A DNA stretch of 64,000 nucleotides from Candidatus Accumulibacter regalis (GTDB taxonomy: Bacteria > Pseudomonadota > Gammaproteobacteria > Burkholderiales > Rhodocyclaceae). Location: contig JEMY01000034.1 in the NCBI GenBank assembly GCA_000585075.1, forward strand, positions 83,804 to 147,803. The letters run 5' to 3'. This document shows, one piece after another, positions 5,658-20,320 of this stretch (position 1 is its first letter; every line of letters starts with the position of its first letter). The notes under the pieces are model-generated. The model saw only the letters and a program-made list of their open reading frames with translations. It had not been told where the DNA came from and did not search any database. A program made the translations under genes and the position numbers.

Positions 5658-6940
5658 TGGGGATGTTCAGCTTTCTCTCGCGCTGGATGGCCTCGAGTGA
5701 CGACCGTTCGCCAGGGGGTGACTTCTGGTTCGAGCCGGTCACGATGCGCACCTCCAGCGGCATGCGGGTGTCGGCGGATAACGCCATGCGCCTGGCGGCG
5801 GTGTACGCCAGCGTGCGCATCCTGGCCGAGACGATGGCGTCATTGCCGTTCGTGCTCTACAGGCAACGCAGCGATGGCGGTAAGGATCGGGTGACGGATC
5901 ACTGGCTGTACCGTGTGCTGGCGAAGCGCCCGAATCCTTATCAGAACCCGTATGAGTGGCGCGAGATGTTGCAGGGTCATCTGGCGCTCAGGGGCAACGC
6001 CTACAACCGGATCGTGGCCAACCGCCGCGGCGAGATCGTCGAGCTGATGCCGATCCACCCGGACCGGATCAGGATGGAACTGACGCCGTCCGGTGACTAC
6101 CGCTATCGGGTGACCGACCGCCTCGGGGTAGAGGCCATACTGCCGCGCGGCGAGATCTGGCATCTGCGTGGTCTGTCGTCGGACGGTCTGATGGGGATGA
6201 GCCCGATCGATCTGGCCCGCGAGAGTCTGGGCATGGCACTGGCCGCGCAGGACTACGGTGCACGCTTCTTCGCCAACGACGCCAAGCCCACCGGTGGCTG
6301 GATCGAGTTTCCGGGGTCGTTCAAGGACAGCGAGGCCAAGAAAGTGTTTCGGGAGTCCTACCAGGCGGCGCAGTCCGGGGCCAACCGCGGCAAGGTGCTG
6401 GTGCTGGAAAACGGCATGAAGTTCCACGAGGTGGGCGTGACCAACCGGGACGCGCAGTTTCTCGAACTCCGGAAGTTTCAGATCACCGACATCGCGCGGC
6501 TGTTTCGCGTACCGCCGCACATGATCGCGGATCTGGATCGCGCAACCTTCTCGAACATCGAGCAGCAGAGCCTGGAATTCGTGATGCACACGATGACGCC
6601 CTGGACCGAGCGCTGGGAAGCGAGCATCGAATCCGAGTTGCTGCTCGACGGCGACGACCTCGAAGTCGAATTCGATTTTGCGAACCTGATGCGCGGCGAT
6701 GCCGCGAGCCGATCGTCGTACTACCAGAGTGGCATCCAGAACGGCTGGCTGACCCGCAACGAGGCGCGCATCGCCGAGAACCTCAATCCGCTCGACGGAC
6801 TGGATGAGCCGCTGCGGCCGTTGAACATGGTCGAGGAAGGGACGGCCGAGGATCTGGAGGGCGATGGCAAGCAAGATGAACCGCCGACGCAGGAAGTGGC
6901 AGAGCCGATAGACGAATGGCTGATGGAACTGACACGATGA
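5657..6940 (+). CDS. Phage portal protein, HK97 type
   Basis: 427 residues from ATG 5657, which overlaps the terminase stop; the ORF-track start at 5444 lies inside terL. SADNAMRLAAVYASVRILAETM, GNAYNRIVANRRGEI, GLSSDGLMGMSPIDLARESLG and FRVPPHMIADLDRATFSNIEQQ are hallmarks of the HK97 portal family. It forms the dodecameric DNA channel at one head vertex. The C-terminal tail is acidic. The stop overlaps the protease ATG. Confidence 0.93.
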   Translation: MGMFSFLSRWMASSDDRSPGGDFWFEPVTMRTSSGMRVSADNAMRLAAVYASVRILAETMASLPFVLYRQRSDGGKDRVTDHWLYRVLAKRPNPYQNPYEWREMLQGHLALRGNAYNRIVANRRGEIVELMPIHPDRIRMELTPSGDYRYRVTDRLGVEAILPRGEIWHLRGLSSDGLMGMSPIDLARESLGMALAAQDYGARFFANDAKPTGGWIEFPGSFKDSEAKKVFRESYQAAQSGANRGKVLVLENGMKFHEVGVTNRDAQFLELRKFQITDIARLFRVPPHMIADLDRATFSNIEQQSLEFVMHTMTPWTERWEASIESELLLDGDDLEVEFDFANLMRGDAASRSSYYQSGIQNGWLTRNEARIAENLNPLDGLDEPLRPLNMVEEGTAEDLEGDGKQDEPPTQEVAEPIDEWLMELTR

Positions 6941-7863
6941 ACCACCACTTGCTGATCGCCGAGTTTCTGGCGACCCCCTGGGCCTTGATGCCCGAACGGC
7001 TGAATGCGGTCGCGGCAGTGCTTGCGCGCTGGTCGCAGGACATCCCGGCTGGCGAGGACGTGCTCACGGGTATCGCGGTAGATCGCAGCATGCGCGAAGC
7101 GCGCCGGCAGGCGGCCACCGCAGTTTCCAGCGGCGGGATCGCAGTGCTGCCCTTGTACGGCGTGGTCACCCAGCGCGGCAACATGGTCGACGATGTCTCC
7201 GGGCCGGGGAGTGTCAGCACGCAGCAGTTTGCCTCTGCTCTGCGCCAGGCGCTGGCGGACGACTCGGTCAGCCAGATCCTGATCGATATCGACAGTCCGG
7301 GCGGCAGTGTCTATGGCGTGTCCGAACTCGCCGACGAGATCGCCAGTGCCCGGGCGCAGAAGCCCGTCGTGGCGATTGCCAACAGCCTGGCGGCGAGTGC
7401 TGCGTACTGGATCGGATGCTCGGCGTCGGAGTTCTACGTCACGCCGGGCGGCGAGGTCGGCTCGATCGGCGTCTGGCAGGCGCACTTCGATTACTCGCAG
7501 GCGTTTGTCACCAAGGGCATCCAGCCGACGCTGATCTCGGCCGGCAAATACAAGGTCGAGGGCAATCCGTATGTGCCGCTCGACGAGGAGGCTCAGGGTT
7601 TCATGCAGTCGCGTGTGGATGACTACTACGCAACTTTCACCAAAGCGGTGGCGCGCGGGCGGGGCGTGCCGATCGCGCAGGTGTGCGAGGGAATGGGTCA
7701 GGGTCGTGTGCTCGGCGGCGACGCCGCGCAGGCGCAAGGCATGATCGATGGCGTGGCCACCTTCGACCATGTTGTCAGGAAGATGCGCCGGGATGCCAAG
7801 TCCGTCGCCAGACCACGGGCAAGCCGCCTCGCCTATGCGCAACGGGTAATCGAGATCCTGTGA
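6937..7863 (+). CDS. Phage prohead protease, S49 (SppA/ClpP-like)
   Basis: 308 residues from ATG 6937 (overlaps the portal stop). Shows IDIDSPGGSVYG, then SLAASAAYWIGCSA with the predicted nucleophile serine, GGEVGSIGVWQAH, and a Lys-containing SAGKYKVEGNPY, which together fit the Ser-Lys dyad of S49 peptidases. In lambda-like phages this enzyme matures scaffold and capsid. No scaffold domain is fused. Normally the capsid gene follows directly; here a ~1.2-kb inverted insertion separates them. Confidence 0.88.
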   Translation: MNHHLLIAEFLATPWALMPERLNAVAAVLARWSQDIPAGEDVLTGIAVDRSMREARRQAATAVSSGGIAVLPLYGVVTQRGNMVDDVSGPGSVSTQQFASALRQALADDSVSQILIDIDSPGGSVYGVSELADEIASARAQKPVVAIANSLAASAAYWIGCSASEFYVTPGGEVGSIGVWQAHFDYSQAFVTKGIQPTLISAGKYKVEGNPYVPLDEEAQGFMQSRVDDYYATFTKAVARGRGVPIAQVCEGMGQGRVLGGDAAQAQGMIDGVATFDHVVRKMRRDAKSVARPRASRLAYAQRVIEIL

Positions 7864-8080
7864 TAATGGAAAGCTCTGGTTGATGTGGCGTGGTGCGGTC
7901 GAGCGTATGACCGTATTTTTTTGCGGAACTGCTGTTTCAGTTCGGACAGGCGCCGGTTGTGGAAGCCATTCAGAAATATCCACGGAATCTGCCGCACATG
8001 TTGGCCATCGGCATCCGCCTGGCGTTGGATCAACGAGCATCTGTCAGGAGGTATCGGAGCACTCGTATCCACAAAAGAAA
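7864..8080. other. Junction sequence between protease gene and inserted cassette
   Basis: About 215 bp with open frames on both strands (for example 7833-8072 minus) but no recognisable protein. It probably belongs to the foreign insertion that carries the CHRD/PEP-CTERM gene, or to an older broken gene. No terminal inverted repeats or target duplications could be seen. Confidence 0.35.
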
Positions 8081-8103
8081 AACCCCGGCGAAGCGGGGTT
8101 TGG
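8077..8103 (-). terminator. Rho-independent terminator of the CHRD gene
   Basis: AACCCCGGCGAAGCGGGGTT hairpin with an A-rich tract on its left, which is a T-tract on the minus strand. It lies 22 bp after the stop of the PEP-CTERM gene. Confidence 0.75.
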
Positions 8104-8124
8104 TCTGCAGAGTGGTTGTTGCGA

Positions 8125-8709
8125 CTATGCCCTCTTGCGGCGGTTGAATCCGAGTCCGGCTAGCCCAAGACTAAGCAGGGCAAGACTGGCGGGCTCAGGA
8201 ACCTGTGTGAGGAAGCCGCGTATTTCACCCCCTGAGCGGAAAGTTGTATGTATGTTGACATACGCCTCACCAAGGGACATCCCAGCGAATAACGCCGCTT
8301 CTGCTCCCGCCGTCGTCCCGCCATGAGCCGTGATGAAAGCCGGGTTGTACGAAGAAGCCAGGGTCATGTCGAGAAGCACGTCATAGACTCCGGACGTAAC
8401 TCCCAGTGGAAAACCAAAGAAGTTTGGAACAGTTGTGGCCACGCCGACCGTCCCGGGATCTGCCGTACAGCAATGGATGTGGGCAGCAGTCGTCGTCCCG
8501 AGCAAGCCGGAAAACGTGACGTGCACCGCCATGGTCTTGGCCACATCGTCCGTAATGACCGACGCAAATCCAGTTGCGGGCGACGCATTTGGGGGGGCCT
8601 CACTCGCGCCATCCAGGTCGGTCTGGTAGGTGATGATCGTCGCGTGCGCCAGCGGAGCACTGGCAAGCATCGCCCCCGCCATCATGAAAACACATAGTGG
8701 ATGTTTCAT
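8125..8709 (-). CDS. CHRD-domain protein with PEP-CTERM sorting signal
   Basis: 194 residues. Signal peptide (MKHPLCVFMMAGAMLASAPLAHA), then a CHRD domain (LDGASEAPPNASPATGFAS, HVTFSGLLGTTTAAHIHCC, GGEIRGFL), then the C-terminal sorting tag VPEPASLALLSLGLAGLGF followed by NRRKRA. PEP-CTERM proteins are exported, cleaved by exosortase and linked to exopolysaccharide or floc formation in Betaproteobacteria; CHRD function is unknown. It has its own AGGAGG site, a sigma54-like promoter and a terminator. It sits inverted between phage protease and capsid genes, where a host-type exported protein is unexpected: a cargo (moron-like) gene or a later insertion. Confidence 0.9.
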   Translation of the reverse strand: MKHPLCVFMMAGAMLASAPLAHATIITYQTDLDGASEAPPNASPATGFASVITDDVAKTMAVHVTFSGLLGTTTAAHIHCCTADPGTVGVATTVPNFFGFPLGVTSGVYDVLLDMTLASSYNPAFITAHGGTTAGAEAALFAGMSLGEAYVNIHTTFRSGGEIRGFLTQVPEPASLALLSLGLAGLGFNRRKRA

Positions 8710-8800
8710 ACAATGCCTCCTGTTGTTCGTTGGCAGCAGCCTGCGTAAGGAATGCAGCAGCTAAGGACAATCGCCAGATAACCGACCGTAGCCAGTGGAG

Positions 8801-8818
8801 AGCACGAATCGTGCCGGA
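8801..8818 (-). promoter_or_regulatory. Sigma54-like (-24/-12) promoter of the CHRD gene
   Basis: Minus strand CCGGCACGATTCGTGCT. The GG of -24 and GC of -12 have the correct spacing for TGGCACG-N4-TTGC, with two mismatches. It is about 90 bp upstream of the ATG. Several betaproteobacterial PEP-CTERM genes are driven by sigma54 with the PrsK/PrsR two-component system, so the fit is biologically sensible. By eye only. Confidence 0.5.
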
Positions 8819-9060
8819 AAATGAATATGGAATGAAGTCAATCTGTTGGCAGGATTTTTGGATACCCATATTTGGGGTGCTGTAAAAATTACCGACAGGA
8901 TTTCGCACTGGAAGTCCTTCCGGAAGGTGTTGCTACGCCGCTCGTTTCATGCGCGGCGCCCACGACAATGGCCCTGGCCACTATTGACACATTTCCCGAC
9001 GACGCTCCACTGACCCTCTGCCCCCCGCTATAAACCGACCCGCCGCTCGTCCCCCACCCC
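8819..9060. other. Non-coding stretch before the capsid gene
   Basis: No gene is seen. An AT-rich patch at 8820-8890 changes to phage-like GC-rich sequence near 8890-9060. The right-hand boundary of the inverted insertion should lie here. Confidence 0.4.
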
Positions 9061-9083
9061 AACCGCCTCCCGGCGGTTTTTTT
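9061..9083 (+). terminator. Hairpin with T-tract upstream of the capsid gene
   Basis: AACCGCC-tccc-GGCGGTT followed by TTTTT. A perfect 7-bp stem in terminator form. It would stop or attenuate transcription entering from the protease side. Confidence 0.6.
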
Positions 9084-9093
9084 ACGCCCCTCG

Positions 9094-9115
9094 AACCCGC
9101 CTCGTGCGGGTTTTT
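9094..9115 (+). terminator. Second hairpin with T-tract directly upstream of the capsid gene
   Basis: AACCCGC-ctcgt-GCGGGTT followed by TTT, ending 16 bp before the capsid ATG and next to its TGGAGAT ribosome site. It could be a terminator or an mRNA leader hairpin. Confidence 0.5.
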
Positions 9116-9131
9116 GCTTTTGGAGATCCAC

Positions 9132-10433
9132 ATGAGCAAGCAACTGCGCGAGCTTCAGGCTCGCAAGACCAACCTGGTCAAGGAGGCCCGCGGCCTGACC
9201 AACCACGCCGCTTCCGAGAACCGCGATCTGACCGACGACGAAGTCACCGCCTTCGACGCCCTGCGTACCCGCATCGATGCTGCCTCCGCGGCCATCGATC
9301 GCGAAGCTGCCCTGATCGCCGACGAAGCACGCATCGGTGTCGACCACGTCATCGGCCCGATCGTCACCGACAACCGCGAAGCGGACCCCCGGCGCGGCTT
9401 CGGCTCCGTCGGCGAATTCATGCAGGCGGTGTACCAGGCCGACAAACCCGGCCAGTCGATCGACGCCCGCCTGCTGCTGGGCGGCATTGGCGCCGCCGCC
9501 CCGAGCAACTACGGTAACGAGGCCGTCGGCCAGGACGGCGGGTTTCTCGTGCCACCGCAGTTCTCGCAGGAGATCTTCAAGCTCTCCCTCGGCGAGGACT
9601 CGCTCCTGCCCCTCACCGACAACGTCGAGATCAGTGGCAACAGCATGGCGTTTCCGAAGGACGAGACGACGCCCTGAGGCACCAACGGCATCCGCGCCTA
9701 CTGGCAGGGGGAAGCATCCTCGGGCGTCCCCACCAAGCCGGTGCTAGGGCTGGCGACCCTGCGCCTCAAGAAACTGATGGCGCTGGTCCCGACCACCGAC
9801 GAACTGCTCGACGACGCCAACGCCCTGACCAGCTACCTGCCGCAGAAGGTGGCGGTGTCGATTCGCTGGAAAGCCAACGAGTCGATCCTCTTCGGCGCCG
9901 GCAACGGCATCCCGCTCGGCTGCATGAACGGCGGCGCCATCGTCACGGTGGTCAAGGAATCCGGCCAGCCAACGCAGACCCTGGTGCCGCAGAACCTCGC
10001 CAAGATGATCGCCCGCCTGCCGCCGGGCTCGTTTACCAACGCTGTGTGGATCGTCAATAACGACGTCCTGCCCGCACTGTTCACGCTCAGCCTGGGCAAC
10101 TACCCGATCTATTTGCCGATCGGCCAGTCCGCCGGCGGCATCCAGGGCTCGCCCTACGGCACGCTGCTCGGTCGCCCGGTGTTCGTCTCGCAGCATGCCA
10201 ACACCTTCTCGTCGCAGGGCGACGTGCTGCTGGTCGATCTGTCGTACTACCAGACGATCACCAAGGCCGGCGGCATGCAGACCGCGACCTCGATGCATCT
10301 GTACTTCGACGCGGATCTCACCGCGTTTCGCACCACTTTCCGCATGGACGGCCAGTCGAAGATCCAGAACCCGATCGCCCCGGCCAAGGGAGCCAACGCG
10401 CTCTCGCCCTACATCCAGCTCGGCGCGCGCTGA
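9132..10433 (+). pseudogene. HK97-family major capsid protein with internal TGA
   Basis: The real start is ATG 9132 (TGGAGAT upstream). The N-terminal coiled-coil delta domain (MSKQLRELQARKTNLVKEA...) is followed by the capsid core (NEAVGQDGGFLVPPQFSQEI). The frame stops at TGA 9675-9677 after FPKDETTP and resumes in the same frame with GTNGIRAYWQGEASSGVP and the rest of the fold (TTDELLDDANALTSYLPQKV...SGQPTQTLVPQNLAKMI) to 10433. Relatives have Trp at the stop position as I recall them, so TGG>TGA is the likely change. Unless UGA is read through, no full capsid is made. The downstream ORF start at GTG 9741 is not a real start. Confidence 0.85.
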
Positions 10434-10491: not shown

Positions 10492-10875
10492 ATGTCCATG
10501 TTTCCCAATGCCAAGGGCGGTGTCGGTGACGGGCTGCTGGGCGGCGCTTTCAAGTGGCTTGGCGGCCTGCTGCCGAATGCCGATGGCGGCGTCTACCGCT
10601 CGCCGGATCTCTCGCGCTTCTCCGGGCAGATCGTCTCCAGCCCGCGTCTCTTTGCCTTTGCGGCTGGGGCGGGCGTGATGGGCGAGGCCGGGCCGGAGGC
10701 GATCCTGCCGCTGGCGCGCGGATCCGACGGCAAGCTCGGCGTGCGCGGCGGTAGCGCCAACAACGTCACCGTCAATATCTACGGGATCAACAACGCGAGC
10801 GAAGTGCGTCGCGCCGGTGGCCAGGTCGGGCGTGAAGTGCTTGGCGCCATCGCCCGCGCGCAGCGCTTTGCGTAG
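10492..10875 (+). pseudogene. C-terminal stub of the phage tape-measure protein
   Basis: 127 residues: GGLLPNADGGVYRSPDLSRFSG, GAGVMGEAGPEAILPLARGSDGKLGV and NNVTVNIYGINNASEVR are the usual C-terminal end of siphophage tape-measure proteins, which normally exceed 700 residues. The ATG and AGGAG site at 10480-10494 probably belonged to the gene that once followed the capsid, so a deletion joined that start to the tape-measure 3' end. Head-tail connector, tail tube, tail assembly and most of the tape measure are therefore missing. It cannot specify tail length. Confidence 0.8.
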
Positions 10876-17552: not shown

Positions 17553-18248
17553 ATGGCAAAATTTCTGAACACCAGTGCTACCAACTACTTCCTCGAAGAA
17601 CTCATCAAGGGCGCCAAAGACCGGCTCATCCTGATCAGCCCGTTTCTGAAACTCAATGATCGCATCAAGGAACTCCTCGCAGACAAGAACCGCTTAAAAA
17701 TTGACGTACGTATTGTCTATGGCAAGAGTGAACTCCAGCCTGAGGAAATCAACTGGCTGAAGGGTCTGACCTACATTCGCACGAGTTTCTGCAAGAACCT
17801 CCATGCCAAGTGCTACTTGAACGAGGAGCTTTGCATCATCGCCAGCCTCAATCTCTACGAGTTCAGCCAAGTCAACAACAACGAAATGGGCGTGCTGATT
17901 CGCCGCACCGACGACGCCGAGCTCTACAAAGACGCCTACGAGGAAGCGCAACGCATCATTCGTATCAGCGAAGAGGTTCGCATTTCTCTGGAACGAGTAT
18001 CGAGTGAGACCGAAAGCAAGACCGAGATGGAGGACACGTCAGCCGAAAAACTGACCACTTCGAAGCTTGCCAAACGATTGGGAATGAAAACCAACGAGCT
18101 TACGGAAAAGTTCGTGCAATCCGGCTTGTTGGAGTCGCGGGAAGGAAAGCATTACCTCACTGACAAGGGCAAAGAAGTCGGCGGTGAGTTCCGAATGAGT
18201 CCCAAGTTCGGTCCGTTCTTCCTCTGGCCGGATACTCTCCAACCGTGA
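17553..18248 (+). CDS. Phospholipase D-like (HKD) protein with C-terminal winged-helix segment
   Basis: 231 residues. The N-terminal half matches the PLD superfamily: RLILISPFLKL, then one catalytic H-x-K motif (LHAKCYL near residue 84) and an SLNLYEFSQVNNNEMGV strand with the conserved Asn/Glu. A single HKD implies a dimer, as in the Nuc endonuclease subfamily. Residues ~165-215 (TTSKLAKRLGMKTNELTEKF, HYLTDKGKEVGG) resemble a winged helix. Likely DNA-directed. Its GC content is lower than the surroundings and it begins the defence island; a defence nuclease role is an inference. Upstream 17278-17552 holds no gene and would carry its promoter. Confidence 0.75.
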   Translation: MAKFLNTSATNYFLEELIKGAKDRLILISPFLKLNDRIKELLADKNRLKIDVRIVYGKSELQPEEINWLKGLTYIRTSFCKNLHAKCYLNEELCIIASLNLYEFSQVNNNEMGVLIRRTDDAELYKDAYEEAQRIIRISEEVRISLERVSSETESKTEMEDTSAEKLTTSKLAKRLGMKTNELTEKFVQSGLLESREGKHYLTDKGKEVGGEFRMSPKFGPFFLWPDTLQP

Positions 18249-18450
18249 CAGCCAACAGGAACTGCAAAAAGGCTTTCCGGGCAACGAGGTAGCGGCGGTG
18301 GTTGAGGGAGAAGGCAAACTACGCGGCTAATGCGATCACCTTGATGAGGAATGCATATCCAAGAGGCTCGCCTCGAGCTTGAGCGACGCTCCGAACTTTG
18401 GATCCTTAGCGCGGAGTTGGTGGGTTACAAGAGGCGACGCAAAAACGACA

Positions 18451-18660
18451 ATGCAATATTTTCCGAGCACCTTTCAGTCGAGCAGATCGCCGCGCATCTC
18501 GGGGTCGCGGGACTCGATTTATCGATGGATCGACAGTAAAGGCCTTCCGGCGCACAGGCTTGGGCGGCTGTGGAAGTTCAAGATTTCCGAAGGGGATGGC
18601 TGGGTACGTGCCACTTGTGCCGACGACAGAAAAGATCAGCCCGGAGGCGGCAGGCCATGA
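18451..18660 (+). pseudogene. Excisionase-type HTH DNA-binding protein, double frameshift
   Basis: The protein family reads 'xxxLSVEQIAAHLGVSRDSIYRWI...LPAHRLGRLWKFK'. Here the start (MQYFPSTF) and the end (SRDSIYRWIDSKGLPAHRLG, RLWKFKISEGDGWVR) are in one frame, but the middle (LSVEQIAAHLGV) is in another. Two compensating shifts, near 18474 and 18505, leave an open ORF whose middle is scrambled. MerR/excisionase-like HTH proteins of this kind often precede type I R-M loci. The recognition helix is disrupted, so it is probably non-functional unless the shifts are sequencing errors. Confidence 0.6.
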
Positions 18661-18682
18661 ACAATAGATTGGGGGATATCTC

Positions 18683-20320
18683 TTGAGTCAGGAAGGGCAA
18701 CTCCTCGACCAGAAGTCCTTGCGAGCAGTGACCGGCAAGACGGCAGACTGGAACGAAATCGCCAAGGATTGCATTGCCTTTGCCAATGCAACGGGCGGTC
18801 GGCTACTGCTGGGCATCGAGGACGGGCAGGATGCGCCGCCAGCCGGTCAACAGATCCCCGCCGACCTGCCCGACACCGTGCGGCGCAAGCTGGCCGAGCG
18901 CACCGTCAACCTTGCAGTGCTGGCCGATGTCGTCACCGCCCCCAATGGCGGCCAGTACATCGAGTTGCGCGTTCCCCGGGCCATGGCCGTGGCCTCCACC
19001 ACTGACGGCAGGTATTTCCTGCGCGTGGCCGATCAGAGCAAGCCCGTCACAGGCGACGACGTGATGCGACTGGCCAGCGAGCGTTCCGCGCTACCGTGGG
19101 ATACGCAGACCACCCTGCATTTTCCGCGCGTCGAGGCGGATGCCGCCAAGCGCGACAAGCTGCTGCAGGCTTTGCGCGCCTCTGAACGTGTCAAAGCCTC
19201 TGTCAAGGAAAAGACCGACGACGAGCTGCTCGACCACTATCAGCTCGCGCGGGGGCACGACCTCACCAACTTGGGCGTGCTGTGCCTTGGCCGCCAGCAT
19301 CACCGCGCCCAACTGACCACGGCACCGGTCATCCAGTTCATCAAGTACGACGAGCGCGGCCAGAAGGTCAACAAGCTGGTGTGGGACGACCACACGCAGA
19401 GCCCGATGGAGCTGATCGAGGCAGTCTGGCTGGAGGTGCCGGATTTCCGCGAGCGGTACGAACTACCCGATGGCCTGTACCGCCAAAACGTGCCCGCCTT
19501 CGACGAAATCGTGGTGCGTGAGCTCCTGGTCAACGCACTGGTGCACCGCCCCTACACCCAGCGCGGCGACATCTTCCTGAATCTGCACCCGGACCGACTG
19601 GAGGTGGTCAACCCCGGCCCGCTGCCACTGGGTGTCACGCCGCAGAACGTGCTGCACACCACCGTGCGCCGAAACGAGCACCTGGCCCGTCTGTTCCACG
19701 ACCTGAAGCTGATGGAACGTGAAGGCAGTGGCTTCGACAAGATCTTCGAGGTGCTGCTGTCGCAAGGCCGCCCCGCACCGGAGCTGATCGAAACGCACGA
19801 TCGCGTGCAGGTCACCGTACGCCGCCGCATCCTGAAGCCCGAGGTCATCGACTTCATCGCCAAGGCAGATCAGACCTACCAGCTCGCCCAGCGCGAGCGT
19901 ATCGCTCTGGGCCTGCTGGCCCAGCACGACGCACTGACCGCCCGCGAGCTGGCAACCACCCTCGAACTGCCATCGGTCGAAGCACTCCAGCCCTGGCTCA
20001 AGCGCCTGCTGGACTGGCATCTGGTGCAGAGCGCCGGCCGCACCCAGGCCACGCGCTATTTTGTTGATTCAGGCCTGCTGCGCAGCCTCAAGTTCACCGG
20101 CGAGACCACTCTCAAGCGCATCGAGCCGCATCGTTTGGCGGCGCTGGTGCTTGAAGACCTGCAGCGTTACCCCGAATCCGCAATCAGCGACATCCATAGA
20201 CGCGTTGGCGGGGAGATCCACCCCAAGCAAGTCAAACGCGCGCTGGAAGACTTGATCGGGCGGGGGGCGGTGCGCTTCGAAGGCAACTACCGCTGGCGGC
20301 GGTACTGGGCGGTGTCATGA
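18683..20320 (+). CDS. AlbA_2 (Schlafen-like) DNA-binding / GHKL-ATPase regulator
   Basis: 545 residues from TTG 18683. Residues ~10-130 are an AlbA_2 domain (TADWNEIAKDCIAFANATGG, RLLLGIEDG). Residues ~270-380 are an HATPase_c_4 module (VRELLVNALVHRPYTQRGDI, GSGFDKIFEVL). The C-terminus has winged-helix segments (LGLLAQHDALTARELATTL; ISDIHRRVGGEIHPKQVKRA). Such proteins are annotated as putative transcriptional regulators and are frequent partners of type I R-M and other defence loci. It sits 154 bp before hsdR and could regulate the operon or act itself. No interruption is seen. Confidence 0.85.
   Translation: MSQEGQLLDQKSLRAVTGKTADWNEIAKDCIAFANATGGRLLLGIEDGQDAPPAGQQIPADLPDTVRRKLAERTVNLAVLADVVTAPNGGQYIELRVPRAMAVASTTDGRYFLRVADQSKPVTGDDVMRLASERSALPWDTQTTLHFPRVEADAAKRDKLLQALRASERVKASVKEKTDDELLDHYQLARGHDLTNLGVLCLGRQHHRAQLTTAPVIQFIKYDERGQKVNKLVWDDHTQSPMELIEAVWLEVPDFRERYELPDGLYRQNVPAFDEIVVRELLVNALVHRPYTQRGDIFLNLHPDRLEVVNPGPLPLGVTPQNVLHTTVRRNEHLARLFHDLKLMEREGSGFDKIFEVLLSQGRPAPELIETHDRVQVTVRRRILKPEVIDFIAKADQTYQLAQRERIALGLLAQHDALTARELATTLELPSVEALQPWLKRLLDWHLVQSAGRTQATRYFVDSGLLRSLKFTGETTLKRIEPHRLAALVLEDLQRYPESAISDIHRRVGGEIHPKQVKRALEDLIGRGAVRFEGNYRWRRYWAVS

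Follow-up and report, generated by a model that had tools for sequence, protein, structure and literature searches.

The window (the whole stretch of 64,000 nucleotides analysed, from a host that we designate as belonging to an Accumulibacter-like genus) holds part of the head operon of an HK97-type prophage in which portal and terminase genes come before the gene of a head maturation protease. Between this gene and the major capsid gene lies an insert with a gene on the opposite strand, and the features of the locus are the following:

6916–7863, plus strand: S49/SppA-type head maturation protease gene, left flank (PF01343, E = 5.3e-36)
7872–8995, no strand: inserted cargo of ca. 1.1 kb (flank homology and GC content)
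8080–8101, minus strand: intrinsic terminator with an 8-bp stem and a T-rich tail (terminator scan and fold z)
8125–8709, minus strand: CHRD/PEP-CTERM gene (ATG start, 194 amino acids)
8710–8722, minus strand: ribosome-binding site region of this gene, ACAGGAGGCATTGT-ATG (from the sequence)
8801–8816, minus strand: candidate -24/-12 (sigma-54) promoter element, CGGCACGATTCGTGCT (position conserved in homologues)
8996–9131, plus strand: phage capsid leader and capsid ribosome-binding site, right flank of the cargo site (homology and hairpin scan)
9132–10433, plus strand: HK97-type major capsid gene, right flank (TIGR01554, E = 4.4e-57 when read through)
10518–10875, plus strand: deletion scar, a post-capsid ORF fused to a C-terminal tape-measure fragment (end of homology and profile matches)

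An earlier annotation made from the letters alone (the sequence-only reading) had described a complete regulated cassette running antisense between the prohead protease and capsid genes, and all of its parts were indeed found. The span that it gave, 8077–8818, is a near-exact fit to the unit with host homology, but the true insert is bigger and extends over about 7872–8995 within a protease–capsid junction of 1268 bp. Its left border was placed from TGATAATGG after the protease stop, which is shared with locus L145, and on the right the phage homology picks up again at 8996–9024. The GC content is 56% across the insert and 58.8% in the cassette ORF as compared to 63–66% in the flanking phage genes. 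DNA homology to genome G079 covers 8075–8823, from the terminator through the promoter, so that the host-homologous unit is the whole cassette.

The ORF reads from 8709 to 8125 on the minus strand from its ATG, and its 194-residue product carries both the CHRD domain and the PEP-CTERM tag claimed earlier, each well above the Pfam cut-off. The CHRD match (PF07452, E = 1.3e-19, 71.6 bits with a gathering cut-off of 24.1) spans the full profile from 1 to 117 at residues 28–167 of the protein, and the PEP-CTERM match follows at residues 169–191 (PF07589, E = 2.4e-7, 31 bits with a cut-off of 20.7; TIGR02595, 27.8 bits with a cut-off of 16). The protein has the architecture of an exosortase substrate, with an N-terminus, MKHPLCVFMMAGAMLASAPLAHA, that by eye reads as the signal peptide proposed before and a C-terminal tail, VPEPASLALLSLGLAGLGFNRRKRA, composed of Pro-Glu-Pro, a hydrophobic stretch and a basic end. 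We infer from these features that the product is exported and processed by an exosortase. An identity with the floc protein PepA (NF033554, floc_PepA) was rejected based on a score of 34.1 bits with a family cut-off of 80.

The regulatory signals of the cassette largely recur at its homologues. An AGGAGG site had been reported upstream of the start codon, where we find ACAGGAGG preceding the ATG, and an AGGAGG-like site is retained in the homologues. The -24/-12 element CGGCACGATTCGTGCT begins 107 bp 5' of the ATG, fits the GG-N10-GC pattern and, taken singly, scores with a shuffle probability of ca. 0.01. The best such elements of the homologues in four genomes of the genus (G312, G079, G287 and G018) and in Nitrosomonas aestuarii lie at -105 to -109 (with elements at the matching position in records L154, L155/L005, L156/L006, L013 and L025). 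At least three elements at the matching position occurred in 0 of 3000 shuffled sets, so the -24/-12-like promoter of the sequence-only reading holds a position conserved in chromosomal homologues. A search for a sigma-70 promoter site for the cassette found none. The same genome encodes PrsR (739 bits with a cut-off of 503), and it is because the pathway genes are present and the promoter is conserved that control of the cassette by RpoN and PrsR can be inferred. The terminator that had been noted downstream of the gene was recovered by the scan at 8101–8080 on the minus strand (fold energy -13.8 kcal/mol, z = -2.55), and a like hairpin is conserved 3' of the ORF in the G079 and G287 homologues.

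The proposed fate of the product presupposes a host exosortase, and the window's genome encodes one EpsH (contig C27; TIGR02602, 244 bits with a cut-off of 105.6) together with 16 PEP-CTERM tails above the cut-off, the cassette protein included. A chromosomal paralogue does exist as a second CHRD protein on contig C13 of the same genome, but it is only distantly related (36–40% identity) and, standing far apart in the tree, was rejected as the donor. In the tree, the window protein clusters with those of G312, G079 and Nitrosomonas (support 97/96). The three nearest homologues in the genus (64–72% identity), those of G312 and G079 among them, each lie at a separate locus, and by eye no phage genes could be recognised there in the ORF lists. 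The closest known homologue is 72% identical and the donor is not among the known copies; the synonymous distance to the nearest homologue is ca. 0.86, and the known copies are therefore not recent donors. Pairwise dN/dS is about 0.21–0.23, a value that combines the time before and after insertion, and at 0.23 the CHRD protein has been constrained on average over those branches. The same cassette was sought in related prophages and did not turn up: this CHRD gene was not found at the protease–capsid site of other phages in INPHARED, a direct scan of IMG/VR or related prophages, and the window is the single example. A profile search of IMG/VR gave one contig, L244, with a 55% homologue; the stretch of L244 that was read has chromosomal-type ORFs and no evident phage gene.

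While the CHRD gene is thus found once, insertions at its site are common. We compared relatives of the capsid and protease taken from IMG/VR and from the genomes of the genus (mostly drafts), and among 85 distinct protease–capsid junctions (window included), 67 are short (65–189 bp, median 131), as expected for genes described as normally adjacent, and the other 18 carry cargo of 705–3484 bp. Each of two IMG/VR scans contributed its 80 best junctions by identity, and this frequency of cargo is therefore not a population estimate. Where the capsids are at least 90% identical, all seven junctions (window included) carry cargo and all seven cargoes differ. Insertions of more than 300 bp were found at 32 of 134 protease–capsid loci and at none of 95 terminase–portal and 128 portal–protease loci, counts that include the near-identical loci excluded from the set of 85. 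The protease–capsid junction is a recurrent cargo site, which is new in this analysis; cargo opens at the protease stop codon and closes before the capsid leader.

The passengers are diverse and comprise glyoxalase-type and antibiotic-monooxygenase-type proteins in L045, an HNH endonuclease in L046–L048, weak matches to PD-(D/E)XK or Mrr in L054 and L071, and a PQQ-CXXCW-type rhodanese in L148 (G261) that is also found in L045. In another genome of the genus, G304 (L147), the site holds an unrelated exported protein of 236 amino acids with a PEP-CTERM-like tail that scores 17.9, under the Pfam cut-off of 20.7; some homologues of this protein in the genus have plain VPEP tails. Antisense cargo at L068:3232–4471 gives a weak trypsin-like match (Pfam) and a match to LmuA of Lamassu (PADLOC), and a pair at L184:7113–9856 appears by eye to encode a HAD/phosphoribosyltransferase-like and a DprA-like protein, possibly a defence pair. 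PADLOC returned no match for the L145 and L146 cargo among the proteins tried. At L045:850–4046, two tandem cargo modules are split by a second 3' fragment of the protease gene; L148 (G261) has one of them again and L157 (G314) a part of the other, and such modules may be exchanged among phages via recombination in the flanks. About a fifth of the sampled distinct junctions carry passenger genes, which differ between junctions, and several look like genes of nucleases or defence proteins. This single intergenic site, in an HK97-type phage family that is common, is a simple place to seek new phage-borne genes.

The capsid leader that closes the site has a structure of its own. In most relatives it has two covarying hairpins with the apical sequences CTC-CGTN-GAG and GACC-CGTN-GGTC, followed by terminator-like hairpins and then the ribosome-binding site of the capsid gene, as seen for example at L113:1899–2006 with equivalents in most relatives. 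In an alignment of a chosen set of 24 sequences cut by hand, 88.3% of the cells of these hairpins pair as compared to 80.2% in shuffles and 34 cells are changed on both sides as compared to 14.4, and sliding the hairpin partners lowers pairing to 27–41%. The leader of the window has kept two tandem terminator-like hairpins (9061–9078 and 9093–9113), and both covarying hairpins are degenerate. The leaders of four relatives matched no Rfam family at gathering score. In the window region, Rfam gave only a weak chance match outside of the leader; the leader hairpins may represent a phage RNA element not yet described.

The prophage itself has decayed. Its protease gene has orthologues of 82–93% identity in the closest phages. 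Its capsid gene reads TGA in frame at 9675, a codon that is TGG in every relative listed, and barring a sequencing error this stop breaks the capsid. Homology to L045 stops at 10518, from where the post-capsid ORF is joined to a tape-measure fragment matching NF058675/TIGR01541; it follows from this join that the intervening head-completion and tail genes are missing. The window prophage is defective and normal virions are impossible from these genes, and the cassette is therefore not currently carried by a working phage. The protease gene of G304 also looks interrupted, close to its 3' end. Elsewhere in the window, a ParE-like toxin gene (PF15781; 351–838, minus strand) lies toward the left of the prophage region with a small ORF upstream that probably encodes its antitoxin, and a PLD-like and an AlbA/Schlafen-type protein encoded past the tail genes (17553–20320) may be more prophage cargo.

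The explanation that we favour, and hold to be probable, is that a host-derived moron was inserted at the variable cargo site of a temperate phage of the HK97 type and outlived the decay of this phage. A moron-like gene had already been suspected, and this idea stands as far as the own promoter and terminator, the lower GC content, the host homologues and the cargo site are concerned, but the prophage is now defective (TGA at 9675, deletion after about 10518) and the window copy has no functional phage as its carrier. Such a carrier is usual and not strictly required, and morons persist in remnants (PMC2920897). In the proposed course of events, a temperate phage of Accumulibacter-like bacteria would have received a self-contained host cassette at the site that follows its prohead protease stop and precedes its capsid leader. 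The antisense orientation and own terminator of the cassette would permit expression in the lysogen independent of the silent head operon. Transcription would be under host RpoN with PrsR. Sec would export the product and the EpsH exosortase of the host would process it before it takes its place on the cell surface or in the extracellular matrix; as proteins of this kind would help cells to flocculate, the cassette product may affect the cell surface. Upon loss of phage function, the cassette would have remained as an ordinary chromosomal gene.

The single example of the cassette lies in a defective prophage, and insertion by chromosomal illegitimate recombination into an already dead prophage, at a position that would then be accidental, has to be weighed against this account. 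The scattered chromosomal places of CHRD cassettes in the genus and the absence of this gene from the protease–capsid site of the phages searched would agree with such a late insertion. However, the position of the insert coincides exactly with the one head-gene junction, among those tested, where cargo occurs (18 of 85 distinct junctions), and IMG/VR relatives whose protease and capsid matches are unbroken (L046–L048, L054 and L068) have cargo there as well. We therefore regard insertion after decay as rather unlikely and capture by the phage before its decay as likely.

Two further proposals concern the benefit of the gene. Two unrelated PEP-CTERM-type cargoes, those of the window and of G304, were seen at the site, and we doubt that the phage lineage repeatedly acquires exosortase-dependent surface proteins of its hosts, under host control, as a regular strategy by which the phages would alter how lysogens aggregate, or how phages adsorb, in sludge granules. 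Alternatively, the gene might serve the phage directly instead of host aggregation, for example through superinfection exclusion by an altered surface receptor. Morons are known to bring about exclusion by modifying the cell surface, and several other cargoes at the site are nuclease- or defence-like (the weak PD-(D/E)XK/Mrr matches of L054 and L071 and the LmuA-like protein of L068); yet the closest matches to the protein are encoded by ordinary host genes that have the same promoter and lie outside of phage loci, and no feature of the protein suggests receptor blocking, making this a very unlikely explanation. That a chromosomal PEP-CTERM locus was misjoined into the prophage in a draft assembly of 85 contigs is extremely improbable: inserts share this boundary in many independent contigs, the borders are the same as those of other inserts in genomes and metagenomes of independent origin, and the insert extends no more than ca. 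200 bp past either end of the cassette before the same phage resumes.

The cassette, probably a host-derived moron, belongs to a known kind of phage-borne gene, with a type of cargo for which, as for such lysogenic conversion, we found no report in open-licence PubMed Central texts. If it works as we infer, prophages can alter the exosortase-made surface of bacteria on whose aggregation enhanced phosphorus removal depends.

Compared with morons as defined after Hendrix for lambdoid and Burkholderia prophages (PMC2920897), the cassette likewise is an extra gene between genes that are adjacent in relatives, has its own promoter and terminator (by sequence) and a GC content unlike that of the phage, and occupies a hot spot with different morons in relatives. 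It differs from them in its sigma-54-type promoter, in its predicted cargo of an exosortase-dependent surface protein and in its site between protease and capsid genes beside the capsid leader. The PEP-CTERM gene pepA of Aquincola, which promotes flocs, has a mapped -24/-12 promoter with GG and GC motifs, its own terminator and a dependence on RpoN1 (PMC9850573), and RpoN-dependent PEP-CTERM floc genes of Zoogloea resiniphila are mentioned in PMC9012009. These floc genes share with the cassette the PEP-CTERM tail, the -24/-12 promoter and the terminator, and their hosts, like that of the cassette, are sludge-type bacteria with PrsR and an exosortase, whereas the cassette encodes a CHRD protein instead of PepA and lies in a prophage. 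Closest of all are the CHRD PEP-CTERM proteins of Accumulibacter-like bacteria, Nitrosomonas, Massilia and others, which are full-length matches of ca. 45–72% identity to the cassette protein and, for the nearest homologues, have their promoter at the same position, but which, unlike the cassette, are chromosomal and not part of a phage operon wherever their surroundings were read.
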